Source of the DNA: a virus
Virus record (IMG/VR): IMGVR_UViG_3300046327_000071
Span: 1 to 29,939 of that record
Length of the DNA stretch: 29,939 nt
Strand: one strand, 5' to 3'
Position 1 is the first letter of the stretch, and each line of letters opens with the position of its first letter. The notes below the pieces were generated by a model that was not told the origin of the DNA, made no database searches, and worked only from the letters and a program-made list of their open reading frames with translations. A program made the translations under genes and the position numbers. Positions 2,580 to 17,212 of this stretch are shown here, in pieces.

Positions 2580-2920
2580 GATTTGGAAACTCCTTCTAAA
2601 AAATTTGCAGCTAATCTTAGAGACATAGCCAATCCCGCCCTGTTGTAAAATTCTTCTAAGTTATTATCTAACTTAGATTTTATAGCTTCTGTGTCAAATT
2701 TACTAGCAGCATCATGTAATTCTATACTGATTTCTTCCTTTGTATATTTTTTATTCTCCACAACAGACAATTCTGATAAATTCGCAGTGAAACTATCAAT
2801 CCAATCATGACAAGATTTATAAACTTGACATGCATCACTATCATGATAACTTCCATGCCAAGTTTTGATTGATTGTTTACATTTGGGACACTTATCCCAT
2901 GTTTCATCATGTATGCTCAT
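2576..2920 (-). CDS. Hypothetical protein with N-terminal CxxC, 114 aa
   Basis: A 114-residue protein whose N-terminus carries CPKC (residues 11-14), then H21, H26 and C31, with another CH at 37-38, which could form one zinc site. The rest is predicted helical and acidic. It starts two bases after the stop of the clamp gene and ends in a 4-base overlap with the next gene. No family recognised; a small zinc-binding accessory factor is an inference. Confidence 0.65.
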   Translation of the reverse strand: MSIHDETWDKCPKCKQSIKTWHGSYHDSDACQVYKSCHDWIDSFTANLSELSVVENKKYTKEEISIELHDAASKFDTEAIKSKLDNNLEEFYNRAGLAMSLRLAANFLEGVSKS

Positions 2921-2921
2921 A

Positions 2922-3635
2922 TTATTTGGTAAGTGAACTTAGAATATAATTTAACTCAGTGTTTCCATTTTTCAAGGTAATGTTTCCAATACCCATCTTA
3001 TTAATCTTGAATGTGAACTCTTTAGAATCCCCAAATGATAATAATTGAATGTTATCCAGATTTAAAATGAATTCATCCATTTCAAAATCAACATCGTCCC
3101 CCTCAACAGTCAGAACATCAGTGTTCATCATGGTTTTGTCTCCAAGGGACCAATACAACTTATCATCTTCTGTAAAGATGTATAATTTATTAGTGTCTTT
3201 AAAAATTGAAGATTGTTTTAACAATGAAGTTAAAAACGCTTTGGATACTTCAAACTCATATTCATATTGAAGACTTTCAATCTTGGATAATGTTAGCTTC
3301 GGAGCTACCAAAATTCCATCACCATATAAGTGATACTTGAACTTGACTTTATTACCTTTATATTCCAAATTATTGGAATTAAGATCGAATTCAACTTCCT
3401 TATCGGAAACCAAATCCAATGCTTTGGATAATTTCTTAACGGATGGAAGATTCAAAGTCTGATCAATATCAGAACTCCATTTTAAGGTTGACCATAAAAA
3501 CATACTGCGATCTTCGGATGAAGATATGGCATAGATTTTATCATCCTTTAAATTTAAAATCGCAGTATCGCTTACTTTTGATAATCCCTCAAGAAAATTC
3601 TTAAGATCCTCCTTATTAAATTTGATTTTTGACAT
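2922..3635 (-). CDS. 45: Sliding clamp, DNA polymerase processivity factor (T4 gp45-like)
   Basis: Ring-shaped clamp that tethers the polymerase and, in T4, also activates late transcription through gp55/gp33. The 237 residues are close to the 228 of T4 gp45. The pattern fits: short alternating strands, an N-terminal helix with FLEGLSKVSDTAILNL, a central FKYHLYGDGI and a C-terminal repeat of the same fold ending in NTELNYILSSLTK. There are no catalytic motifs, as expected. Its start overlaps the preceding gene by 20 bases. Unusually for this family, no clamp-loader genes (44, 62) follow; four small genes and a primase do instead. The call rests on pattern recognition and context and would need a profile search to confirm. 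Confidence 0.7.
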   Translation of the reverse strand: MSKIKFNKEDLKNFLEGLSKVSDTAILNLKDDKIYAISSSEDRSMFLWSTLKWSSDIDQTLNLPSVKKLSKALDLVSDKEVEFDLNSNNLEYKGNKVKFKYHLYGDGILVAPKLTLSKIESLQYEYEFEVSKAFLTSLLKQSSIFKDTNKLYIFTEDDKLYWSLGDKTMMNTDVLTVEGDDVDFEMDEFILNLDNIQLLSFGDSKEFTFKINKMGIGNITLKNGNTELNYILSSLTK

Positions 3636-4107
3636 GTTTCTGCTTTGGGACAGTATCCCCCTTTTCTAGTAATTCAATAACCTTTGTTATTTTTCTAGAA
3701 ATTTCTTTTAATAAAGTGTTGGTTTCGTCCTGTTTGGATGCATTAAATGAAAACTCTAATTGGTCCCCCTCTATTGGAGTTGGAAACTGTGGCATATTTG
3801 GAGCGGGTCCATTAGGATAAGGTATAAATGAAGCGGTTCCCATTGTTAAGTCGGGTTGATCTAATGGAACTGCTGGTGGAACATACATAGGCTGAGGACG
3901 AACAACAGAGGCTTGAGCAAGTCGTTGTGCTTGCTCAAGCCCTTGTTTGATATTCATACTACCATACTCGGAATGTGCTCCCGGTATGGGGTTAGACGAG
4001 GTATACTTCTCAATCACTCTGGATTCTTGATATATCGGACCAGCGAATGCTGCCAAAGCAGCAAAATCATCTGGTGACATTGGTGGTATTTCGCCAGTAT
4101 CGTGCAT
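3616..4107 (-). CDS. Proline-rich hypothetical protein, 163 aa
   Basis: A 163-residue protein with an N-terminal MSPDDFAALAAFAGPIYQES segment, a long proline-rich, probably disordered middle (PPAVPLDQP, PYPNGPAPNMPQFPTP) and a C-terminal helix (LLKEISRKITKVIELLEKG). The layout suggests a linker or tether with a short C-terminal coiled coil. Function unknown. It lies directly upstream of, and overlaps, the clamp gene; a clamp or replisome adaptor is possible but unproven. The GIY-YIG endonuclease gene ends two bases before its ATG. Confidence 0.65.
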   Translation of the reverse strand: MHDTGEIPPMSPDDFAALAAFAGPIYQESRVIEKYTSSNPIPGAHSEYGSMNIKQGLEQAQRLAQASVVRPQPMYVPPAVPLDQPDLTMGTASFIPYPNGPAPNMPQFPTPIEGDQLEFSFNASKQDETNTLLKEISRKITKVIELLEKGDTVPKQKHVKNQI

Positions 4108-4108
4108 A

Positions 4109-4837
4109 TTAATTAGTTATTTGGTTTAAATTGGTGAATCTTTTTAATTTAGCCTGTCTCATTTTTTCTTTTGATTCCTCGGATCTCTTCTTTCCTAAAT
4201 TAGCTAGTCGTCGTTTTTCTATATGTTCTTTGGAATGTTTCCTGCCTAAATTTGATTGTCTTATTTTCTCCATATGTTCTTCTGATGGTGGATTGGCTAA
4301 TCTAGCCCGTCTCATTTTTTCTTTTGATTCTTCAGAAAACTTCCGACCTATACTCGACAGTCTAATTTTTTCTTTAGTATCATCAGATCTAGGTTTTCCC
4401 AACCTAGAATGTAAAAGTCTTTCTTTGTGGTGGTTAGAAAGAACTTTACCCCTATTAGAATTTCCAATATTTCTTTTATGTTCATCTGTTAATGGAATTC
4501 CTGTTAAATCTGTCGAATATGCACATAAATTATAACCATGCTCGATATTATTAGAATTATTTAATTCTATATAATATGCTTCTCTATCTAAAAGATGTTT
4601 ATTATTTTTCAATTTATCAAAATTTTCAAACACTTCTAATATTTCAACTTTAAACGAATTCCACCCATATTTTAAAATGGCATTCTTTAAAAGTTTACCG
4701 GCATTTTTACCACACCTTTTATGTTGAGCAAGTCTGGTTTTAATACAGACAGACTTACCCACATATATTTTTCCGTTATTTATACAAGTCAATTTATAAA
4801 TTCCAGCATTTTTTGGATATTTAGATTCATCGTTCAC
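4109..4837 (-). CDS. GIY-YIG homing endonuclease with NUMOD3 repeats (1 of 3)
   Basis: Free-standing homing endonuclease. The N-terminal nuclease domain shows GIY at 12-14, YVG at 25-27, the conserved Arg near 35 and a catalytic Glu near 86 (LLDREAYYIELN). From about residue 118 follow about seven 17-residue NUMOD3-type DNA-binding repeats (pattern EExKEKxRxAxLGKxxS). The reading frame starts at GTG (4837); this gives the same N-terminal length as the two paralogues at 11116 and 12607. An ATG four bases upstream is in another frame and gives only MSER. It lies between gene 32 and the proline-rich gene, codirectional with both. Such elements cut DNA of related phages lacking them and spread by repair. 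Confidence 0.9.
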   Translation of the reverse strand: MNDESKYPKNAGIYKLTCINNGKIYVGKSVCIKTRLAQHKRCGKNAGKLLKNAILKYGWNSFKVEILEVFENFDKLKNNKHLLDREAYYIELNNSNNIEHGYNLCAYSTDLTGIPLTDEHKRNIGNSNRGKVLSNHHKERLLHSRLGKPRSDDTKEKIRLSSIGRKFSEESKEKMRRARLANPPSEEHMEKIRQSNLGRKHSKEHIEKRRLANLGKKRSEESKEKMRQAKLKRFTNLNQITN

Positions 4838-4864: not shown

Positions 4865-5794
4865 TTATTCAATATCTAGTTCAGCCAATAGATCGTCAAC
4901 ATCTGGATCAGACTTGTCGGTATCATGGAACATTGGAATGTCATCATTGGGATCTTCCTCGACAACCTTTTTCTTAGCTTCCTTTTTGGCGACTTCTTTC
5001 TTAGGTGCTACTTCCTTCTTAAGCAAAGATTTCTTTTCCGTCTTAACAGAAACGTCATCACCTTCAGTATAGAAGTGTTCATCCAATAGATTTTGAAGTT
5101 CCTCAAATGTCTTAACTGGATATAATTGAGACAGATCTAATGGGTTATTATAAATTTCATCAATTTCATCATCATCCAAATTCAATTTGGTTTTGGATGT
5201 GAAGTATGATTTCTTATAAGTGGTATAGATACCTTGTTCATCTGCAACGATTTTAAAATCACACCCATCGTTGGATAGATCGAATATCGCAGCACCGAAT
5301 TCATCAGCACGATTACCAGACATTGCATCATCTACAATTTCCTTAAGTTGTGGACCCATGTTCAAAATTTGAACCTGACCATTTAACTCCGAGTTAAATG
5401 GATTATCAATCCAATAGGCTTTAACAAGCCAACCCTCGCGTTCCTTGATAGGATTTTCGAACTTTTCGTCCTTAGCTGGGCCAGCATCTTTCCACTCCTT
5501 GTAGAGCTTCCATCTTGCTTCATTGATCGGATCACGCTCCCCGAATGACTTCAAGGATATTGCGGACACGAACGAACCATCTTTTTTAGAGGTCCAACTA
5601 TTTACATAATGATGGAAGAATGTTTTATCATCCTCGTTTTCAATTCCTTCAACATCTGGAATCAACCTAATTGTGTAGGTATGTCCTGCTGGGAACTTCA
5701 TTATGTTTGAGAAAGAACCACCTGATGTTCTTTCGGTTTTCTTTAACGCATCCTTGATTTTATCAAACATGCTTGCATTATATTTTTTAGCCAT
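4865..5794 (-). CDS. 32: Single-stranded DNA-binding protein (T4 gp32-like)
   Basis: Coats ssDNA during replication, recombination and repair and represses its own translation in T4. The 309 residues are close to the 301 of gp32. There is a basic N-terminus, an OB-type core (GHTYTIRLIPDVEG, FFHHYVNSW, EGWLVKAYWIDNP), a Lys-rich linker (repeated KKEVAPKKEVAKKEA) and a strongly acidic C-terminal tail ending DVDDLLAELDIE, the part that recruits partner proteins in T4. The zinc ribbon of T4 gp32 is missing: only one cysteine is visible (GCDF), as in the T4-like cyanophage proteins I know. Directly upstream lies a fourfold AAACT repeat and no Shine-Dalgarno. Assignment is strong. Confidence 0.85.
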   Translation of the reverse strand: MAKKYNASMFDKIKDALKKTERTSGGSFSNIMKFPAGHTYTIRLIPDVEGIENEDDKTFFHHYVNSWTSKKDGSFVSAISLKSFGERDPINEARWKLYKEWKDAGPAKDEKFENPIKEREGWLVKAYWIDNPFNSELNGQVQILNMGPQLKEIVDDAMSGNRADEFGAAIFDLSNDGCDFKIVADEQGIYTTYKKSYFTSKTKLNLDDDEIDEIYNNPLDLSQLYPVKTFEELQNLLDEHFYTEGDDVSVKTEKKSLLKKEVAPKKEVAKKEAKKKVVEEDPNDDIPMFHDTDKSDPDVDDLLAELDIE

Positions 5795-5800
5795 ATTTTT

Positions 5801-5820
5801 AGTTTAGTTTAGTTTAGTTT
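5801..5820 (-). promoter_or_regulatory. Fourfold AAACT repeat in the gene 32 leader, candidate operator
   Basis: On the minus strand four exact 5-base units (AAACT x4) lie between the stop of the membrane-protein gene and the gene 32 ATG at 5794. The sequence has no G, cannot pair with itself and lacks a Shine-Dalgarno. T4 gp32 represses its own synthesis by coating an unstructured AU-rich leader, so this is a candidate autogenous operator. The repeat is direct observation; the role is inference. Confidence 0.5.
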
Positions 5821-6049
5821 ATTTTCCGAAAGTAGCTACAATACCCAGAGCAATAAGAGCAATAACCATGCCCACAAGTAATACAGCTAACCAAATAGCT
5901 AATGGAATCCAAAGTGGGCATAATACCCAAATCCAACTCCATGATGCCACGGCGGTTAATCCAAATAGTTTAAGAAGTATAAAAATTATAGTCAATAGAC
6001 CACAAAATCCAATACCCCCCGATTGTGTTGCAATTACATTTTTACTCAT
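5819..6049 (-). CDS. Small membrane protein, Fragile-X-F-like, 76 aa
   Basis: A 76-residue hydrophobic protein with two membrane-spanning segments (about 13-33 and 44-73) around a Trp-rich turn (SWSWIWVLCPLWIP). The pattern GLLTIIFILLKLFGLT followed by W-rich PLWIPL matches small phage proteins annotated as transmembrane Fragile-X-F protein, whose role is unknown to me. It lies just upstream of gene 32 and 27 bases after the possible gene 59. The leader again holds AACTAA-like repeats and no Shine-Dalgarno. Confidence 0.75.
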   Translation of the reverse strand: MSKNVIATQSGGIGFCGLLTIIFILLKLFGLTAVASWSWIWVLCPLWIPLAIWLAVLLVGMVIALIALGIVATFGK

Positions 6050-6076: not shown

Positions 6077-6691
6077 CTAGTTTTCCTTTGCTTGTTTCGC
6101 AAACTCTTTCATTTTCTTCGAAGCGAAAAATTTATTCTTTGTTATTTGAAATGTCTGATAAAAATCAGGAAATACAAATTCCAATATTCTGGATTCTACC
6201 TTCGGTTTTTTGAATGTCAATGCATGAAGTGTGTAATAATTGATTTTATGTGTTTTCAAATGCTCCACAAAACATGGCATCGTTCCTTCTATATTTAACT
6301 CATAATCCGATAATTGCAAGTTGTTTTCTATACAATATCGGATCACAAATTTCAAACTATCAGCTAGTCTCCTAAGACTATCGGGAGAATCTGGATCTTG
6401 GATTTCCAGTTGTTTCACATAATCAGTATAGCACTTGATGGCTTTCTGTTTAGTGTAAAACTCCAATGAATAATATTCATAATCTGGATAAATTTTATGA
6501 GGGGCCATGAAGAAATCCTCTTGAATTAGATTGGGATAACTGTTGAATAGCTTTTCTAATTTCTCCAATGCCATCACTTTATCCCCCTCTAAATTGGTGA
6601 AGTCCTTTTTGATCTTGAAAGCTTCACCTTTCGCTTTTCTAGAGGAAACTAGATGGTTATTATAAATTTGTTTTTGAAATTCACTTATCAT
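6077..6691 (-). CDS. Possible helicase loader (T4 gp59-like), 204 aa
   Basis: A 204-residue, basic, mainly helical protein; T4 gp59 has 217. Weak resemblances to gp59 include a central FYTKQKAIKCYTDYVKQLE helix and a C-terminal FVEHLKTHKINYYTLHAL block followed by a basic C-terminus (FFASKKMKEFAKQAKEN). In T4, gene 59 is directly upstream of gene 32 in the same direction, which is the position here apart from one small membrane gene. Gp59 loads the gp41 helicase onto gp32-coated DNA. The call is positional plus faint pattern; it could be an unrelated protein. Confidence 0.45.
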   Translation of the reverse strand: MISEFQKQIYNNHLVSSRKAKGEAFKIKKDFTNLEGDKVMALEKLEKLFNSYPNLIQEDFFMAPHKIYPDYEYYSLEFYTKQKAIKCYTDYVKQLEIQDPDSPDSLRRLADSLKFVIRYCIENNLQLSDYELNIEGTMPCFVEHLKTHKINYYTLHALTFKKPKVESRILEFVFPDFYQTFQITKNKFFASKKMKEFAKQAKEN

Positions 6692-7003: not shown

Positions 7004-7273
7004 TTATTTTTTAATACTTCTTGTCCAGCGTGTCACATACTTACTTTTTGCAATACTTGGATCAAATTCTAAAAACACTTTAACAAGCTCGAAGTCAGTG
7101 TCAAGATCCAGAATCTCCTTAAACACGGTTTTTAATTTTTCACTTTGAAGTGTTTGAATGAAAACATTTTGAATTGAAAGCTTTTTACCTTTCAGGTTCA
7201 TTACAAATGTGCAGAAGCATAGAAACAAGTGATTTGATTCTTCTTCAATAAGGTTGTGGGAGGGATCTATCAT
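7004..7273 (-). CDS. Hypothetical protein, 89 aa
   Basis: An 89-residue, helical protein with no visible motif apart from a short cysteine pair (LCFCTF). It overlaps the preceding gene by 4 bases (ATGA at 7270-7273) and is followed by the 105-residue gene after 5 bases, so it is part of one translationally linked run leading to gene 32. Size equals that of T4 DsbA, which lies near here in T4, but the sequences show no resemblance, so no name is given. Confidence 0.6.
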   Translation of the reverse strand: MIDPSHNLIEEESNHLFLCFCTFVMNLKGKKLSIQNVFIQTLQSEKLKTVFKEILDLDTDFELVKVFLEFDPSIAKSKYVTRWTRSIKK

Positions 7274-7848
7274 ATTTTATTATCGGTGAAATAACATTTG
7301 ATGTTATTAAATTTAAAGTCACTATCTATATCAGATGTTCCCAACATAAATTTCCCATGGTTTATTCTAGAGTAATATTTGTTATACATTTCAGCGTAAT
7401 CCCCACTGTTATCATATAACACAATATCAAAAAACCCATCGGTTTCTTTACCACCATGTTTATCCGCCCACCCAAAATATACCCCATTTGATATACCATT
7501 ATTATTTTTCAAATAAATTTCTTGAAAGTAACCAGCTAATTTATAATTAGTTGAAACATGTAATACATTTGTATTTTTTGTTTTGTTTAAAAATGCGGCT
7601 AAAGTTATTAATAACGTCGATACTCCCATTTGTCTTCCAAGTGTAACTATACCATAATCCTTCGTATACCACGAATACATAAGTTTTTGATTTTCATTAA
7701 TTGAAAATCCATTAAACTTCTCGAAGAACTCATAAAACTCTTCCTTCCCCGTCTTTGGTTTGATTATATTCATCACCTCGGACTTTAGAGTTACCCCCAA
7801 TAGTGCCGATGATGCTAATAATCCTGTTAAAAATGATCGTCTTTTCAT
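7270..7848 (-). CDS. Terminase-like ATPase fragment with Tat-signal-like N-terminus, 192 aa
   Basis: The N-terminus MKRRSFLTGLLASSALLG matches a twin-arginine export signal: RRSFL followed by a 15-residue hydrophobic stretch, but no clear AxA cleavage site. From residue 45 the protein follows the layout of a large-terminase ATPase domain: INENQKLMYSWY, then GRQMGVST at 71-78 in Walker A position (no Lys), FFDIVLYDNSGD at 139-150 in Walker B position, and KFMLGTSDIDS at 166-176 like the coupling motif. The protein ends there; no nuclease domain follows. The motifs are visible; a link to terminases is inference, and export of such a protein would be very unusual. The real packaging terminase must be elsewhere in the genome. 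Confidence 0.6.
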   Translation of the reverse strand: MKRRSFLTGLLASSALLGVTLKSEVMNIIKPKTGKEEFYEFFEKFNGFSINENQKLMYSWYTKDYGIVTLGRQMGVSTLLITLAAFLNKTKNTNVLHVSTNYKLAGYFQEIYLKNNNGISNGVYFGWADKHGGKETDGFFDIVLYDNSGDYAEMYNKYYSRINHGKFMLGTSDIDSDFKFNNIKCYFTDNKI

Positions 7849-7876: not shown

Positions 7877-8200
7877 CTAAATTTTTCCAATCTTCATCAA
7901 ATGATGATTTAGTTTATCGACGGTTTTTTCAGGGGAAATGAAATTTAATATGAGAGTAAATTTTTTTCCAGACCTTAAAGTAATTTCATAAACATCTTCA
8001 TTTCCCTCAAGAGTGGAAGAATTATCTTTAACTTTCTGAAAATCCTCCAGTAAGAAATCAGATTTAAATCCCATATAATCACTATAAAAAAATCTATCCC
8101 AATCAAAATCATCAATTTTTGATTCGTCTAATTGTAGAAAATCTTCTCGATACATATCGAGATATAATTCCTCAATAATTTTTTTATCAATCTGTTTCAT
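7877..8200 (-). CDS. Hypothetical protein, 107 aa
   Basis: An acidic protein of 107 residues beginning MKQIDKKIIEELYLDMYRED, with a C-terminal beta-rich part (VYEITLRSGKKFTLILNFISP). The frame is open to an ATG at 8233, but the ATG at 8200 overlaps the stop of the upstream gene as ATGA, the coupling arrangement used repeatedly here, so I choose it. No family recognised. Confidence 0.6.
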   Translation of the reverse strand: MKQIDKKIIEELYLDMYREDFLQLDESKIDDFDWDRFFYSDYMGFKSDFLLEDFQKVKDNSSTLEGNEDVYEITLRSGKKFTLILNFISPEKTVDKLNHHLMKIGKI

Positions 8201-8418
8201 CTCAATAAAACTGCGTCTTGTATAACTTTCCAATTTTCACCTGAAGTATTTTCTAGATACGCTACGAATCCAATAGATTTTCCAATTTCTTCAAGCTTAC
8301 CAAGCTGTTCTTCAACTGAAGCATTCACCATCCATCTATATTTTATACCATCCACAATAGAATAATAATTAACTATCTCATCTCTTGTTCCCGCCACCAT
8401 TTTATATTCTGTTATCAT
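8197..8418 (-). CDS. Hypothetical protein, 73 aa
   Basis: A small protein of 73 residues (MITEYKMVAGTRDEIVNYYS at the start) with alternating hydrophobic residues suggesting a small alpha/beta domain (VNASVEEQLGKLEEIGKSIG). The frame extends upstream to an ATG at 8487 deep inside the DHH gene; the ATG at 8418 overlaps the DHH stop as ATGA and is preferred. Ends in another ATGA overlap with the next gene. Function unknown. Confidence 0.55.
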   Translation of the reverse strand: MITEYKMVAGTRDEIVNYYSIVDGIKYRWMVNASVEEQLGKLEEIGKSIGFVAYLENTSGENWKVIQDAVLLR

Positions 8419-9272
8419 AACTGTATCTGTATTAATTTTTGTGTAAAATCCATGAACTTCTGAGTGATCTTTCCACCACTTGCCCATTCGCCCCCACCAC
8501 CATTACAAAGATTTTCAGCCATGAATGAAATATTCGCTATCGAACCTTCCGGTTTTCTAAATGAAACGAACTGTGTGTCGGGATTCACAACGATAATGAC
8601 ATCCTTTTTATGGTTGTCAATCAGTTTTTTAGCTATTTCGTTCACCGGAAGCTTGGAAAACGTTGCGATCACTGACCATTCCTTAAATTCTCCTTCATAA
8701 ATTTCCAACTTCTCGTATTCTTCATTAATAGCATCGAAAAATGCTTCCGCTAATTCCATTTCCTTATCAGTAAGGCCATCATAGCCATTCCAGAATCTAT
8801 TTACAAATGTTTTGAATCGATTATATTTTGTATTTCTATAAAGACCATTAAGATACTCAGATTCCTTATGTTTTAAAGAATATACGTTGTAATCATCCAC
8901 ATAAAGTATCAATCTTTTCAGATCATTGGGTATTTCAAACTTTTCTTTAAACTTCTTATAAAGTAACTTACAGCATGATGAATATTCTTCGGAAATAATG
9001 GAAGAATCAAACACATTTAACTTTTCCCCACGGTCTGAAACGAAAACCACCTTATGGTCATCGATTTTATTAACCAAGGACTGATCTAGAACCATTCCGA
9101 CCACAAATACTTTGTCATAATTATCTAAATTATGTTCCCAATCGGAATATTGGTTCAAGAAATCACCAAAGAATACAGATTTATAATCCATATCAGGAAA
9201 AATATTTCCCAACAAGATGGTAGAACATGCTCCATCAAGATCAGAATTAGCCCATACAAAAATTTTAGACAT
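8415..9272 (-). CDS. DHH-superfamily phosphoesterase-like protein, active site partly missing
   Basis: A 285-residue protein with the layout of DHH/DHHA1 phosphoesterases (RecJ, nanoRNase and cyclic-dinucleotide hydrolases). Motif I appears as NSDLDGACS at 9-17, a motif II Asp in MVLDQS near 63, the DHH position as SDRGE at 79-83, and the C-terminal substrate-binding glycine motif as GGGGEWASGG at 258-267. The usual metal-binding His of motif I and the two His of DHH are absent, so it may be catalytically altered or only bind nucleotides. In its usual form it would degrade short RNA or DNA. It has its own TTGACA promoter (9282-9309) and starts the run of genes that leads to gene 32. Confidence 0.75.
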   Translation of the reverse strand: MSKIFVWANSDLDGACSTILLGNIFPDMDYKSVFFGDFLNQYSDWEHNLDNYDKVFVVGMVLDQSLVNKIDDHKVVFVSDRGEKLNVFDSSIISEEYSSCCKLLYKKFKEKFEIPNDLKRLILYVDDYNVYSLKHKESEYLNGLYRNTKYNRFKTFVNRFWNGYDGLTDKEMELAEAFFDAINEEYEKLEIYEGEFKEWSVIATFSKLPVNEIAKKLIDNHKKDVIIVVNPDTQFVSFRKPEGSIANISFMAENLCNGGGGEWASGGKITQKFMDFTQKLIQIQL

Positions 9273-11115: not shown

Positions 11116-11970
11116 TTAATTAATATTTTTTAATTTTACCTGTCTCATTTTATCTTTCGTTTCCTCCGATAAACGTTTACCTAATTTTACTTGTCTCATT
11201 TTCTCCTTGGATTCTTCTGAATGTTTATGACCTTTAGCATTGCTTGTTTTACCCAATTTATTTTTACTCATTTTCTCTTTAGTTTCTTTTGAATGTGTAT
11301 ATCCTACTCTATTACTAGGTTTTCCTAATCTAGATCGACTCATCCTATCCTTTATTTCTTGTGATCTTTTTTTACCTTTCTGACTTTTACTCATTTTCTC
11401 TTTAGTTTCTTCAGATATTATTTTATCCTTATTAGCCTTCCCTATATTATCTTTATGGGTCTGTGAAAGTTTCTTTCCTAAATTTTTCTTTCGTATATTT
11501 TCTTTATGTTCTTCGGTAAATGGGGGTCTTGTTCTACCCCTCCAAGTAGAACCTATTTTATATCTATGTTCTTCTGAAAACGGACGCCCCAAATTAGCTT
11601 TTCTAAGCTTTTCTTTAACGCTTTCTAACATTGGAATTCCTGTTTTATCTGTAGAAAATTTACATATATTATATCCTTTATCTTTATTTGTTGAGTCGTA
11701 TAATTCAATATAATAAGATTCTCTATGTAAGAGAGAATCGTTATCTTTTATTTTATCGAACTCTTCGAATATCTCCAATATTTCAATATTGAAGGCATCC
11801 CACCCATATTTAAATAAAGCATTTTGGAAATAATATCCACCTTTAGATCTTTTATGATAGTTTAATCGTGATCTAATATCAACTGATTTGCCTATATAAA
11901 CCTTTCCATTTTCAATACATGTAAATTTATAAATTCCCGCCTTCTTTGGATATATTTTAATTGTTTCCAT
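11116..11970 (-). CDS. GIY-YIG homing endonuclease with NUMOD3 repeats (2 of 3)
   Basis: A 284-residue paralogue of the genes at 4109 and 12607. The N-terminal domain has GIY at 12-14, YIG at 25-27, the conserved Arg in DIRSRL and the catalytic Glu in LLHRESYYIEL. After a STDKTGIP linker follow about nine NUMOD3-type repeats, two with short inserts (NRVGYTHSKE, NAKGHKHSEE). It sits directly before helicase gene 41, and a remnant of the gene 41 start lies directly upstream of it, so it probably entered at or near the 5' end of gene 41. ATG at 11970, no Shine-Dalgarno. Confidence 0.9.
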   Translation of the reverse strand: METIKIYPKKAGIYKFTCIENGKVYIGKSVDIRSRLNYHKRSKGGYYFQNALFKYGWDAFNIEILEIFEEFDKIKDNDSLLHRESYYIELYDSTNKDKGYNICKFSTDKTGIPMLESVKEKLRKANLGRPFSEEHRYKIGSTWRGRTRPPFTEEHKENIRKKNLGKKLSQTHKDNIGKANKDKIISEETKEKMSKSQKGKKRSQEIKDRMSRSRLGKPSNRVGYTHSKETKEKMSKNKLGKTSNAKGHKHSEESKEKMRQVKLGKRLSEETKDKMRQVKLKNIN

Positions 11971-12028: not shown

Positions 12029-12610
12029 TTAGATAAGTTTCAAATATTGCTTATATTGTTTTTCGGTAATGTTATCTTTATCTAAGTAGAATTCCAAATC
12101 CATCAATTTATCTGGCATACTTTTAACTAGAGTTGTTGTATATGGTGTTTCCTTATACCATTTTCGTTCCTGATGGACGATATTATAAAATAATAGGTAA
12201 GAATTAGACGACTTACAATATTCTTCAACATCAACATCTAATTTGTATTGTTTAATCTGGTCCAAGGCTCGTTTTTCACAATCCCATTCCAACTCGATTA
12301 CCCCTCTTATAGCATACTCTATAATATCCTTTCGGAAAAACTTACCATCCAACCAATCAAAAACTATTCCACAATTATTAATCAATTTCATGAAGTATTT
12401 TCGATCAGTCTTCCATTGTAAATAGTGACAATATTCATGAATAAAGATTTCAAATCCCATTTTATTTTGCATGGATACTATAAATTCCTTATTTTCGTAA
12501 TCAAACGATCCCCCAAAATCTCCGATCTTTTTACTTTGTTGTAATAAAATTGAATACTTATCCCTAATAAGTTCTGATACCACCTTACATATGTAATTAT
12601 CTCTTGTCAT
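12029..12610 (-). CDS. Putative zinc metallopeptidase-like protein (HExxH), 193 aa
   Basis: A 193-residue soluble protein with FIHEYCHYLQW, an HExxH zinc-peptidase motif at 58-62, and a downstream ELEWDCEKRAL (about 106-116) whose acidic residues could be the third zinc ligand. This is the minimal-gluzincin layout of small phage and SprT/ImmA-like proteases, but I cannot assign a subfamily. There is no signal peptide, so action would be in the cytoplasm on host or phage proteins. Its ATG overlaps the stop of the third GIY-YIG gene (ATGA, 12607-12610). The motif is visible; the proteolytic function is inferred. Confidence 0.65.
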   Translation of the reverse strand: MTRDNYICKVVSELIRDKYSILLQQSKKIGDFGGSFDYENKEFIVSMQNKMGFEIFIHEYCHYLQWKTDRKYFMKLINNCGIVFDWLDGKFFRKDIIEYAIRGVIELEWDCEKRALDQIKQYKLDVDVEEYCKSSNSYLLFYNIVHQERKWYKETPYTTTLVKSMPDKLMDLEFYLDKDNITEKQYKQYLKLI

Positions 12611-13431
12611 ATTTGTTGTATTTGTTTATTTGCGGATTTTCTCATCTTTTCTTTAGTTTCTTCTGAATGTTTATATCCCGGTCTTTTATTTTTTATTCCT
12701 GTCTGAGCTATACTCATTCGTTCTTTAGATTCCTCTGAATGTTTTCTACCCAATACTGCACGACCTATCTTTTCTTTACTTTCATCAGAATGTTTAAAAT
12801 TTTTTCTTTTGCTGGGTTTATCTTTATACAATAACCTAAGTTTTTCTTTACTTTCATCTGACATTTTTTTACCCAAATTCGCTTTACGTAATTTTTCTCT
12901 ATGTTCATCGGACATTTTTTTACCCAAATTCGCTTTACGTAATTTTTCTCTATGTTCATCGGATCTTGGGGGTCTATTTAATGCCGATATTCTCATATTC
13001 TCCCTAGATTCTTTAGAAAATGGACCTGTTTTTTTACCTAATTTAGATATACGTATCTTCTCTTTGGTTTCTTCTGAATGTTTTACACCACTTCTATCAT
13101 TGGAATATTTACATATATTATATCCCTTATCTGGATTGTGAGACTCGAATAAATCTATATAATATGTCTCCCGTTCTAGAAGAAAATTATTATCTCTTAC
13201 CTTATCAAAGTTATCCACTATCTCTAATATATCAACCCTAAAATTATCCCACCCGTATTTTAAAATTACACTCTGTAAGTAATATTTAATATTAGAATTT
13301 TTTCCCTGCCATTTATGGGCCGCAAGTCTGCTGTATATATTTACAGACTTTCCAATATAAATTTTATTATTAATATTACAAGTTAATTTATATATTCCAG
13401 CTTCTTTCGGATAATTATTTTTAATCTTCAT
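12607..13431 (-). CDS. GIY-YIG homing endonuclease with NUMOD3 repeats (3 of 3)
   Basis: A 274-residue paralogue of the genes at 4109 and 11116: GIY at 12-14, YIG at 25-27, conserved Arg in NIYSRL, catalytic Glu in LLERETYYIDL. About nine NUMOD3-type repeats follow, two of them identical (MSDEHREKLRKANLGKK), produced by an exact 51-base tandem duplication at 12860-12961. It lies between the decayed glycosyltransferase copy and the HExxH gene, overlapping the latter by 4 bases. It is probably active, since the frame is intact and the motifs are complete. Confidence 0.9.
   Translation of the reverse strand: MKIKNNYPKEAGIYKLTCNINNKIYIGKSVNIYSRLAAHKWQGKNSNIKYYLQSVILKYGWDNFRVDILEIVDNFDKVRDNNFLLERETYYIDLFESHNPDKGYNICKYSNDRSGVKHSEETKEKIRISKLGKKTGPFSKESRENMRISALNRPPRSDEHREKLRKANLGKKMSDEHREKLRKANLGKKMSDESKEKLRLLYKDKPSKRKNFKHSDESKEKIGRAVLGRKHSEESKERMSIAQTGIKNKRPGYKHSEETKEKMRKSANKQIQQI
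12860..12961 (-). repeat. Perfect 51-base tandem duplication in the NUMOD3 array
   Basis: The segment 12860-12910 is repeated base for base at 12911-12961. It encodes one 17-residue NUMOD3 unit, so the copy keeps the frame. Neighbouring units share protein sequence but not DNA identity, so this duplication is recent. Confidence 0.92.
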
Positions 13432-15625: not shown

Positions 15626-17212
15626 ATGTATATGACTAAATACGGATTTTCCTATTATAACCAACGTGCTGAAGTTTTTAATGAAATGGCCCGTCCAAGT
15701 CCATTAACTAAAATGGGGGAACATGGTGCTATCGGTAAGCAACTTTTAGACCAAGTTGGTAAAATAATGAAACTTGGAAATATTGAGGATTCTGAAGGTC
15801 AAACAGTTCCGGGTTTACCTCTAAATGTTCATAAAAACAGAGTTTTAAGATATTTTCTTTACATGTTAAATGAAAACGAAGGTATAGAAGACGGGGAGGA
15901 ATCAGAAGATGATGGAACTTTTGCCAGAAGTAGTGATGGGATTGTAAATTTATCAAAAAGACTTTTAAGTATTCCTTTGGATGAAAAGGCGAAAGATCAT
16001 GGATTTATGACTTCCGATGCATTATATCGTGCGGCTATAATGAAATCCATAGAAAATAATCCCCAATATGTAACTTCTCCCGAATTTAAACAAGCAGTAT
16101 TAAACACAACCTCCATTGCTGATTACATGAGACAAGGTAGAGTTGCTACACATTCCAGTTACTCTATTAATAAAGCAAAAGAACAAGAAGAGAAGCATGG
16201 TGGTGCTGCTATTGAAGATATTCACTCCGCTCAAATGGATATTAAAGATACTCTAACCCAAATCCATAAAGCGATGGGTTACAAGAGACGTAAAATGTCT
16301 GGTAAACCCGAACAACCATCTTCCGGTGTATCGAATGATTTCACGGAAAACATAACAAATATTTTAAAAACTTTAGAAGAATTATCGATATTTAAAAAAG
16401 TATTAGATCGTATCACTACATCTAATGTGGATATGGGAACAGAAGATTCCGATCAACAAGGAACCTTTAGAAAAGCATTGCAATTTAACCAAATGTTGGA
16501 ACATCCATTAGGAGACGCTGAAATTGCATCATTAGCAATTCTTCCCAGAGATAAAACTGGTAATACCATTATAGAAGATTTGATCGAACAATTCTCGGAG
16601 TTAAAAGATACTGGAATACCAATTGAAGAATTTCAAAATGAAATTTCTGATATCATGTCTTATACACCCAACGAAGTTCATCCTGTCTTAAATCTTATTC
16701 TAAATGATGTTACACAATCCGAAGATAAATCTGATGAATATCCCGGATATGATTCAGAAATATTAAAACAATACCTTACTACTCCCGAACAAACGGAGGC
16801 ATTTGATAGATATTATCAATGGTATATTAATAATATGCAGGATAGAATGGAAAAAGCCAAAGAAGCGGCAGAATACGCCAAAGCTGGTTACGAAGAATAT
16901 AAAGGTATGCTTCCAGAATTAAGAAGAAATTACGCGGAATTCCTCAATAGATGGAAAACTAAAAATGCCAAAAAACAAGTCGATCATGCCAATAGCTTGA
17001 GAGTTAATGATGATGATGTTCTCAAGCAACATGGATTATCACCGGATGATATGGATGATTATGTGGCGTCTAAAGTTCCCAAAAAGGAATCCTATGTGAT
17101 GTCTTACATGACAGAACAAGTGTTCAAAGACAAATTCACCCCGAAAGGTGAATTTAAAGATCGTGGATTTAAGAAGCTGAATTATCTAGAATGGTTAGAA
17201 AGAAATTCTTAA
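15626..17212 (+). CDS. Unknown protein, 528 aa, probably late
   Basis: A 528-residue plus-strand gene inside a minus-strand replication region. There is no signal peptide or membrane segment. The sequence is acidic, mostly helical, with a Gly/Glu/Asp-rich loop (EGIEDGEESEDDG) near residue 90 and a probable coiled coil at about 405-455 (NMQDRMEKAKEAAEYAKAGY). No enzyme motif is visible. Opposite strand to the early genes suggests late expression, and size and composition would suit a virion or head-assembly protein. ATTAAATA overlaps the first ATG, a weak late-promoter look-alike; ATG 15632 is an alternative start. Its TAA and the uvsX TAA overlap in a shared TTAA (17209-17212). Function unknown. 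Confidence 0.75.
   Translation: MYMTKYGFSYYNQRAEVFNEMARPSPLTKMGEHGAIGKQLLDQVGKIMKLGNIEDSEGQTVPGLPLNVHKNRVLRYFLYMLNENEGIEDGEESEDDGTFARSSDGIVNLSKRLLSIPLDEKAKDHGFMTSDALYRAAIMKSIENNPQYVTSPEFKQAVLNTTSIADYMRQGRVATHSSYSINKAKEQEEKHGGAAIEDIHSAQMDIKDTLTQIHKAMGYKRRKMSGKPEQPSSGVSNDFTENITNILKTLEELSIFKKVLDRITTSNVDMGTEDSDQQGTFRKALQFNQMLEHPLGDAEIASLAILPRDKTGNTIIEDLIEQFSELKDTGIPIEEFQNEISDIMSYTPNEVHPVLNLILNDVTQSEDKSDEYPGYDSEILKQYLTTPEQTEAFDRYYQWYINNMQDRMEKAKEAAEYAKAGYEEYKGMLPELRRNYAEFLNRWKTKNAKKQVDHANSLRVNDDDVLKQHGLSPDDMDDYVASKVPKKESYVMSYMTEQVFKDKFTPKGEFKDRGFKKLNYLEWLERNS

Follow-up and report, generated by a model that had tools for sequence, protein, structure and literature searches.

A Tat-type signal joined to a probably inactive relative of the terminase ATPase domain in uncultured T4-like phages

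Among described systems, the closest to the protein considered here is the ATPase domain of the terminase large subunit (TerL; gp17 in T4; Pfam Terminase_6N, PF03237). The family that we present shares with this domain the Q-motif, the Arg-Gln of the P-loop, the RQxGx[ST]T motif, the RG before the Walker B strand and the order of secondary structure elements. It differs in having no P-loop lysine at either of two positions, no catalytic glutamate and no nuclease domain, and in carrying a Tat-type signal. Its gene is also a separate one: it belongs to the early/replication region, and the same phages have a complete TerL gene at another place. The second lysine position is the one that terminases with a deviant Walker A use, reportedly described by Mitchell and Rao in 2004 (cited in PMC5727402). 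The other known element is the Tat signal, which has twin arginines followed by x-F and a Gly-rich, moderately hydrophobic h-region of at least 12 residues; a basic residue in the c-region, frequent though not essential, acts in Sec avoidance (PMC7317946). The N-terminus of the family fits this published anatomy.

The window, by which we mean the whole stretch of 29,939 bases that was analysed, is the record of an uncultured virus with a T4-like replication module. Its genes encode a DnaB-type helicase, a primase, a family B polymerase, UvsX, UvsW, a UvsY-like protein, SbcCD, a late sigma factor and gp32, and no packaging gene is found in its 29,939 bases (the Terminase_6N search is empty). 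On the minus strand an ORF with an ATG start occupies 7270-7848 and encodes 192 aa. A preliminary description had read this ORF as a terminase-ATPase-like layout that follows a Tat-type signal and ends before any nuclease domain, lying among replication genes near gene 32 and outside the packaging cluster, and this reading stands. The motifs that were quoted for it (MKRRSFLTGLLASSALLGV, GRQMGVST, FFDIVLYDNSGD and KFMLGTSDIDS) are all present, the reading frame ends directly behind the ATPase-like portion, and a DHH gene and gp32 flank it.

The signal peptide-like segment (residues 1-24, MKRRSFLTGLLASSALLGVTLKSE) maps to 7777-7848 (minus strand, like all features of the gene) and starts with MKRRSFL and a hydrophobic stretch. 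Its twin arginine (residues 3-4) is at 7837-7842, and Lys22, a c-region residue of the Sec-avoidance-like basic kind (for the role of such residues see PMC7317946), is at 7783-7785. Further along lies the signature FNGFxIxxxQK (residues 45-55, 7684-7716), with F45, N46, G47, F48, I50, Q54 and K55 invariant, which the hhalign alignment places on the TerL Q-motif. The degenerate Walker A, RQMGVST (residues 72-78, 7615-7635), retains the P-loop arginine and has neither the canonical nor the deviant lysine. In the degenerate Walker B, DIVLYDN (residues 141-147, 7408-7428), the aspartate is retained and the catalytic glutamate is replaced.

The gene sits in a slot whose borders, all on the minus strand, are conserved. 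The upstream border is the gene of a DHH-family phosphoesterase (8415-9272; Pfam DHH 1.9e-4, and synteny). From the ORF list and the comparison with relatives, the slot also holds two small ORFs with no assigned function, one of 96 aa (8197-8487) that overlaps the end of the DHH gene and one of 118 aa from a TTG, probably shorter (7877-8233). The downstream border is a conserved 89-aa gene (7004-7273; 60-88% identical in relatives), followed by a 204-aa gene conserved in relatives (6077-6691) and by the gene of a gp32-like single-strand DNA-binding protein (4865-5794; Pfam gp32 2e-10, phrog_224 6.5e-22). This is the order of T4 genes 33, 59 and 32, and it is by gene order only that the 89-aa and 204-aa genes are given the positions of genes 33 and 59.

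Other observations can be made in the window. Three GIY-YIG-type homing endonuclease genes (4109-4837, 11116-11970 and 12607-13431) are scattered through the replication region. On the plus strand, opposite to the direction of its neighbours, 15626-17212 encodes a 528-aa protein that has no PHROG match and is highly variable among relatives (27-69% identity). A paucity of Shine-Dalgarno motifs combined with A+T-rich upstream regions is a habit of Bacteroidota phages. Because a Shine-Dalgarno-like motif precedes only 3 of the 31 gene starts in the window and the upstream regions are about 80% A+T, the sequence suggests a Bacteroidota-type host for this phage.

Does the protein belong to a family? 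It has no significant Pfam, NCBIfam or PHROG family and no PDB sequence match, and no homologue is present in the bacterial genome contigs searched. Among 50,697 deposited phage records there is no relative either (tblastn with the window protein and with the L071 and L069 homologues; best matches at chance level). Ordinary searches returned only two near-identical contigs, which differ by a single amino-acid change (V25A), with a synonymous change besides in one of the two, and whose frame is undamaged. A degenerate DNA pattern that combines the twin arginine, the Q-motif glutamine and RQxGx[ST]T at loose spacing matches once in the window and never in shuffles. On the viral collection the pattern gives a set of matches, most sharing a 233-base spacing, and the translations form a clear family with the blocks MKRR.F..., E(E/D)FY.FF.KFNGFPIN..QK and (N)GRQ.G.[ST]T. 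Since this pattern demanded RR, the conservation of RR was rechecked by a protein-alignment scan and by an RR-free pattern, and these added L080/L081, L082 and L084. Altogether there are about 10 homologous loci with at least seven distinct sequences, all in uncultured T4-like phages. The proteins are 177-192 aa long and end just past the ATPase-like part, and the homologues, at 31-45% identity, have the same layout and the same genomic place. In relatives without the gene at the slot, a search found the family absent elsewhere. We also considered a chance ORF, which is rejected by these homologues of the same layout and place, by a TerL profile score twice the best of 300 column shuffles and by the intact frame in the near-identical contigs.

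We turn to the relationship with TerL. Using hhalign, the family profile is aligned to 14 TerL ATPase domains, both whole and without the signal. The probability is 86.9% for the whole profile (E 4e-6) and 89.9% with the signal removed (E 1.7e-6), and the alignment, at about 16% identity, runs through the Q-motif, Walker A, the RG motif and Walker B. Among 300 column shuffles the best score is 23.5, against 47.7 for the real profile, and the best probability is 3.3%; the reversed alignment gives 0.1%. Other P-loop profiles give 0.2% (UvsW), 2.3% (DnaB) and 1.9% (UvsX). In 19 whole phage records, the best matches of the family HMM are the family itself and then mostly TerL genes; a standalone ATPase (L119:453-1319) of a 484-kb phage is also among them. 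A single-protein profile test against TerL is only suggestive (10.8 bits, with none of 5000 shuffles as high), and the relationship became firm after the homologues found by the pattern were included. On these sequence grounds the body is demonstrably homologous to the TerL ATPase domain. That the anatomy as a whole is a dead TerL-ATPase relative behind a Tat-type signal we hold to be very probable.

The structural comparison uses an AlphaFold model built from eight sequences, which is of moderate quality (pLDDT 60.6, pTM 0.60); the single-sequence model (pLDDT 35.6) is of no use. With the moderate model, VIA-align gives Z 9.8 for reverse gyrase, 7.6 for HK97 TerL, 7.3 for PhiV-1 TerL and 6.6 for T4 gp17, the TerL matches, P74-26 among them, falling at Z 6.5-7.6. 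Foldseek against the PDB and viral models has no match under E 0.001, and the reverse-gyrase helicase domain appears at E 0.05. A predicted fold without relation to terminases had been named as a refutation of the terminase reading. The predicted fold does match the TerLs of HK97, PhiV-1, P74-26 and T4 and so does not refute it, but the helicase domain of reverse gyrase ranks higher. As predicted, the fold is a P-loop fold, which alone does not choose terminase over helicase.

The active site is degenerate throughout the family. Both the canonical P-loop lysine and the deviant one are absent in all members, and Walker B reads DN, DQ or DC where TerLs have DE; each of the 21 TerL-type proteins examined carries either the canonical lysine or, in those that lack it (RQxG[IL][ST]T), a lysine two residues before the arginine. 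The preliminary description had singled out the missing Walker lysine. The residue is indeed absent, but this is not odd by itself: the annotated TerLs of Flavobacterium phage immuto and Microcystis phage Mel-JY01 likewise have RQxGIST and no canonical lysine, and the idea that its loss is in itself remarkable is therefore rejected. Those two proteins differ from the family in being full-length terminases that keep the lysine two residues before the arginine and the DE of Walker B. The unusual point, as read from the alignment, is that both lysines and the Walker B glutamate are all missing in the family. Because neither lysine is present and D[N/Q/C] stands in place of DE, the ATPase is probably dead. 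A separate TerL is detected in six of the contigs that bear the family, and in four of them (L085-L088) the canonical RQSGKTT can be read. A side observation concerns TerL itself: the 947-aa TerL at L022:556-3399 (IMGVR_UViG_3300000553_000009) has a large intein-like insertion within Walker A (RQVGK...HNSTL), and an open frame of about 900 aa in another contig (L090) may hold a similar one.

The N-terminus of the family reads M[KR]RRxF[LI]. The preliminary description had named conservation of the twin arginine in homologues as a check, and every aligned sequence has MxRRxF, also the ones recovered by the two scans without the RR requirement. The RR-free pattern, for example, recovered L084, which begins MKRRNF, and no homologue without RR was found by that pattern or by the protein-alignment scan. 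The 14-residue hydrophobic core is moderately hydrophobic (mean hydropathy 1.6-2.05 across the family), and Lys22 in the c-region is invariant across the aligned family. By eye, a candidate AxA-like cleavage site can be seen as AVA in the L077 group and AKA in L074, and a weaker one (LKS) in the window protein. Generic Tat models score below their cut-offs: the window protein has E 0.18 and 12.2 bits against Pfam TAT_signal, whose cut-off is 22.7, and the best E values in the family are 0.032 (Pfam) and 0.017 (TIGR01409). We consider real export or membrane anchoring somewhat more likely than not. In a 211,724-base relative without the family at the slot (G002), the minus strand of L120:363-620 encodes a small protein with MKRRGFIGSLVGFIGLPF near its start, which points to Tat-like signals on other proteins of this phage group.

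The order DHH gene, family gene, 89-aa gene holds in every member long enough to judge, and ATGA overlaps are frequent. In the DHH tree the carriers fall in three separated parts, and the window phage is nested among ten relatives without the gene. In these, the slot either has nothing in it or is taken up by other small ORFs or by a homing endonuclease. The slot of L006 has a homing endonuclease of the GIY-YIG type, the same as those in the window. At L012:1180-1605, L059:5051-5443 and L060:4762-5235 the slot is filled by a truncated protein related to gp21, the prohead protease. The L060 protein matches Peptidase_S77 (0.0035) and phrog_207 (1.2e-5), and in these slot proteins the catalytic His and Ser, found within NHP and MSTR in the real enzyme of L114, are replaced. 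Because the protease relatives of L012, L059 and L060 show no evident signal peptide, the slot is not reserved for exported proteins. Elsewhere in the group, the DnaB-type helicase gene of L075 appears to lie in two pieces (2878-4230 and 5349-5846), and the roughly 1.1 kb between them is probably an insertion.

The body of the protein changes faster than its surroundings. Between L080 (8121-8549) and L082 the end of the DHH gene, the signal segment and the next gene are 95-100% identical in DNA, and the bodies are 34% identical in protein; this demonstrates a body allele replaced behind a constant signal and constant flanks. Among L077, L070 and L080 the flanks are 93-100% identical and the body differs by 14-20%. 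The dN/dS of the body is 0.11-0.41; in the comparisons among L077, L070 and L080 it exceeds the value for the flanking genes (0.02-0.16) by a factor of 2-10, yet stays below 1. Given the exchange of body alleles and a dN/dS that is raised yet below 1, the body reads as a constrained yet fast-diversifying passenger behind a constant signal.

How might such a protein be used? The best overall explanation, in which our confidence falls a little short of even, is an accessory protein derived from the TerL ATPase that would be envelope-targeted, non-enzymatic and used in competition. The protein would fold in the cytoplasm and then pass to the Tat translocon of the host, and its action, whether as a periplasmic or as an inner-membrane-anchored protein, would need no ATP. 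The diversified domain would bind a varying partner, most likely one that decides the outcome between competing phages, by superinfection exclusion or by blocking a factor of the rival or of the host. Its use would come early in infection, in phage-phage competition or against the host. The competition or exclusion role, which we infer solely from the patchy distribution, the location in the early region and the diversification of the body, is possible rather than probable; the allelic exchange of the body points more to competition or arms-race biology than to a structural tether.

Such a tether is one of several alternatives to be weighed, and the chief rival among them is a decoy role against immune sensors of TerL. 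Of these sensors, Avs1-4 recognise TerL or portal proteins (PMC12931631), and an early, dead TerL-like domain in the cytoplasm might occupy these Avs-type STAND receptors and hide the real terminase, with the N-terminal segment only parking the complex at the membrane. The body does diversify, the Avs3-PhiV-1 TerL complex (8dgc) is among the matches of the predicted fold (Z 7.3), and the dead prohead-protease relative in the same slot elsewhere would make mimicry of late morphogenesis enzymes a shared theme. However, a mimic should retain the surface that is recognised, while the family keeps only its low identity to TerL and has its nucleotide site destroyed, and an export signal would take the protein out of the cytoplasm, so we think the decoy unlikely. 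The tether, in which an uncleaved signal would keep a P-loop domain that binds DNA or terminase attached to the inner membrane and localise replication or packaging complexes, is quite unlikely. It would suit descent from a DNA-translocating domain and a gene that has ATGA overlaps with its neighbours and precedes those in the 33-59-32 positions, but the gene is missing from many close relatives that retain all its neighbours and is thus dispensable. The swapping of body alleles between flanks that are 95-100% identical is likewise unexpected for a partner of conserved phage proteins, and the invariant c-region lysine and the AxA-like sites fit cleavage rather than an anchor.

Two further readings concern the nature of the body itself. 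With a reverse-gyrase helicase domain as the top fold match of the model (Z 9.8; Foldseek E 0.05), the body might be a dead superfamily 1/2 helicase domain instead of a terminase domain. This is very unlikely, as the profile matches TerL (87-90%) and not UvsW helicases (0.2%), the next-best matches of the family profile over whole records are mostly TerL genes, and RQxGxST, an RG ahead of Walker B and this spacing of the Q-motif are all characteristic of terminases. The loss of the catalytic residues and of the nuclease domain, together with the patchy distribution, would also suit a decaying, functionless terminase fragment kept by chance beside core genes, with an N-terminus that is merely Tat-like. 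Such a remnant would hardly keep its frame intact in at least seven distinct sequences, a body dN/dS of 0.11-0.41, a conserved location and an invariant RR, h-region and Lys22 at 31-45% overall identity, and we regard it as very unlikely.

Returning to the envelope-targeted accessory protein, a more specific form of it would have dead copies of late morphogenesis enzymes (the terminase ATPase with its export signal and, in relatives, the prohead protease) serve as a fast-diversifying early weapon or shield in one dedicated slot. The terminase version would then exclude superinfecting phages or counter rivals from within the cell envelope, independently of ATP; in this full form the proposal is doubtful. 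Should the protein truly be exported, a domain from a packaging motor would operate where there is no ATP. The loss of all its catalytic residues would agree with that, and the family would then clearly exemplify a phage enzyme turned to use as a binding protein. The constant signal, the hypervariable passenger, the fixed slot and the second dead morphogenesis enzyme in relatives make for a concrete and testable place in T4-like phages in which to seek genes of anti-defence or of competition among phages.

The terminase domain is already known, and what is new is its combination with an export signal and its likely use. An exported relative of terminase had been taken as undescribed, and our literature search agrees: it turned up no account of an export signal on a relative of terminase. 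The standalone TerL-type ATPase at L119:453-1319 (LR756508.1, from an uncultured 484-kb phage; 288 aa) is likewise short and encoded apart from the real TerL, but it differs in its ribbon-helix-helix-like N-terminus, its intact deviant Walker A (KSRQLGITT), its DE and its lack of a signal peptide. PHROG family 2586 (166 aa, no assigned function) weakly matches a family member (E 0.003) and also matches TerL ATPase domains. Measured against TerL, the family fails the defining features and is a repurposed terminase domain, not a terminase. The T-even proteins Imm and Sp are early superinfection-exclusion proteins, small and located in the envelope. The family would resemble them as small, early, envelope-located phage accessory proteins; Imm and Sp differ in being neither terminase-derived nor Tat-targeted, and we propose no relationship in sequence.
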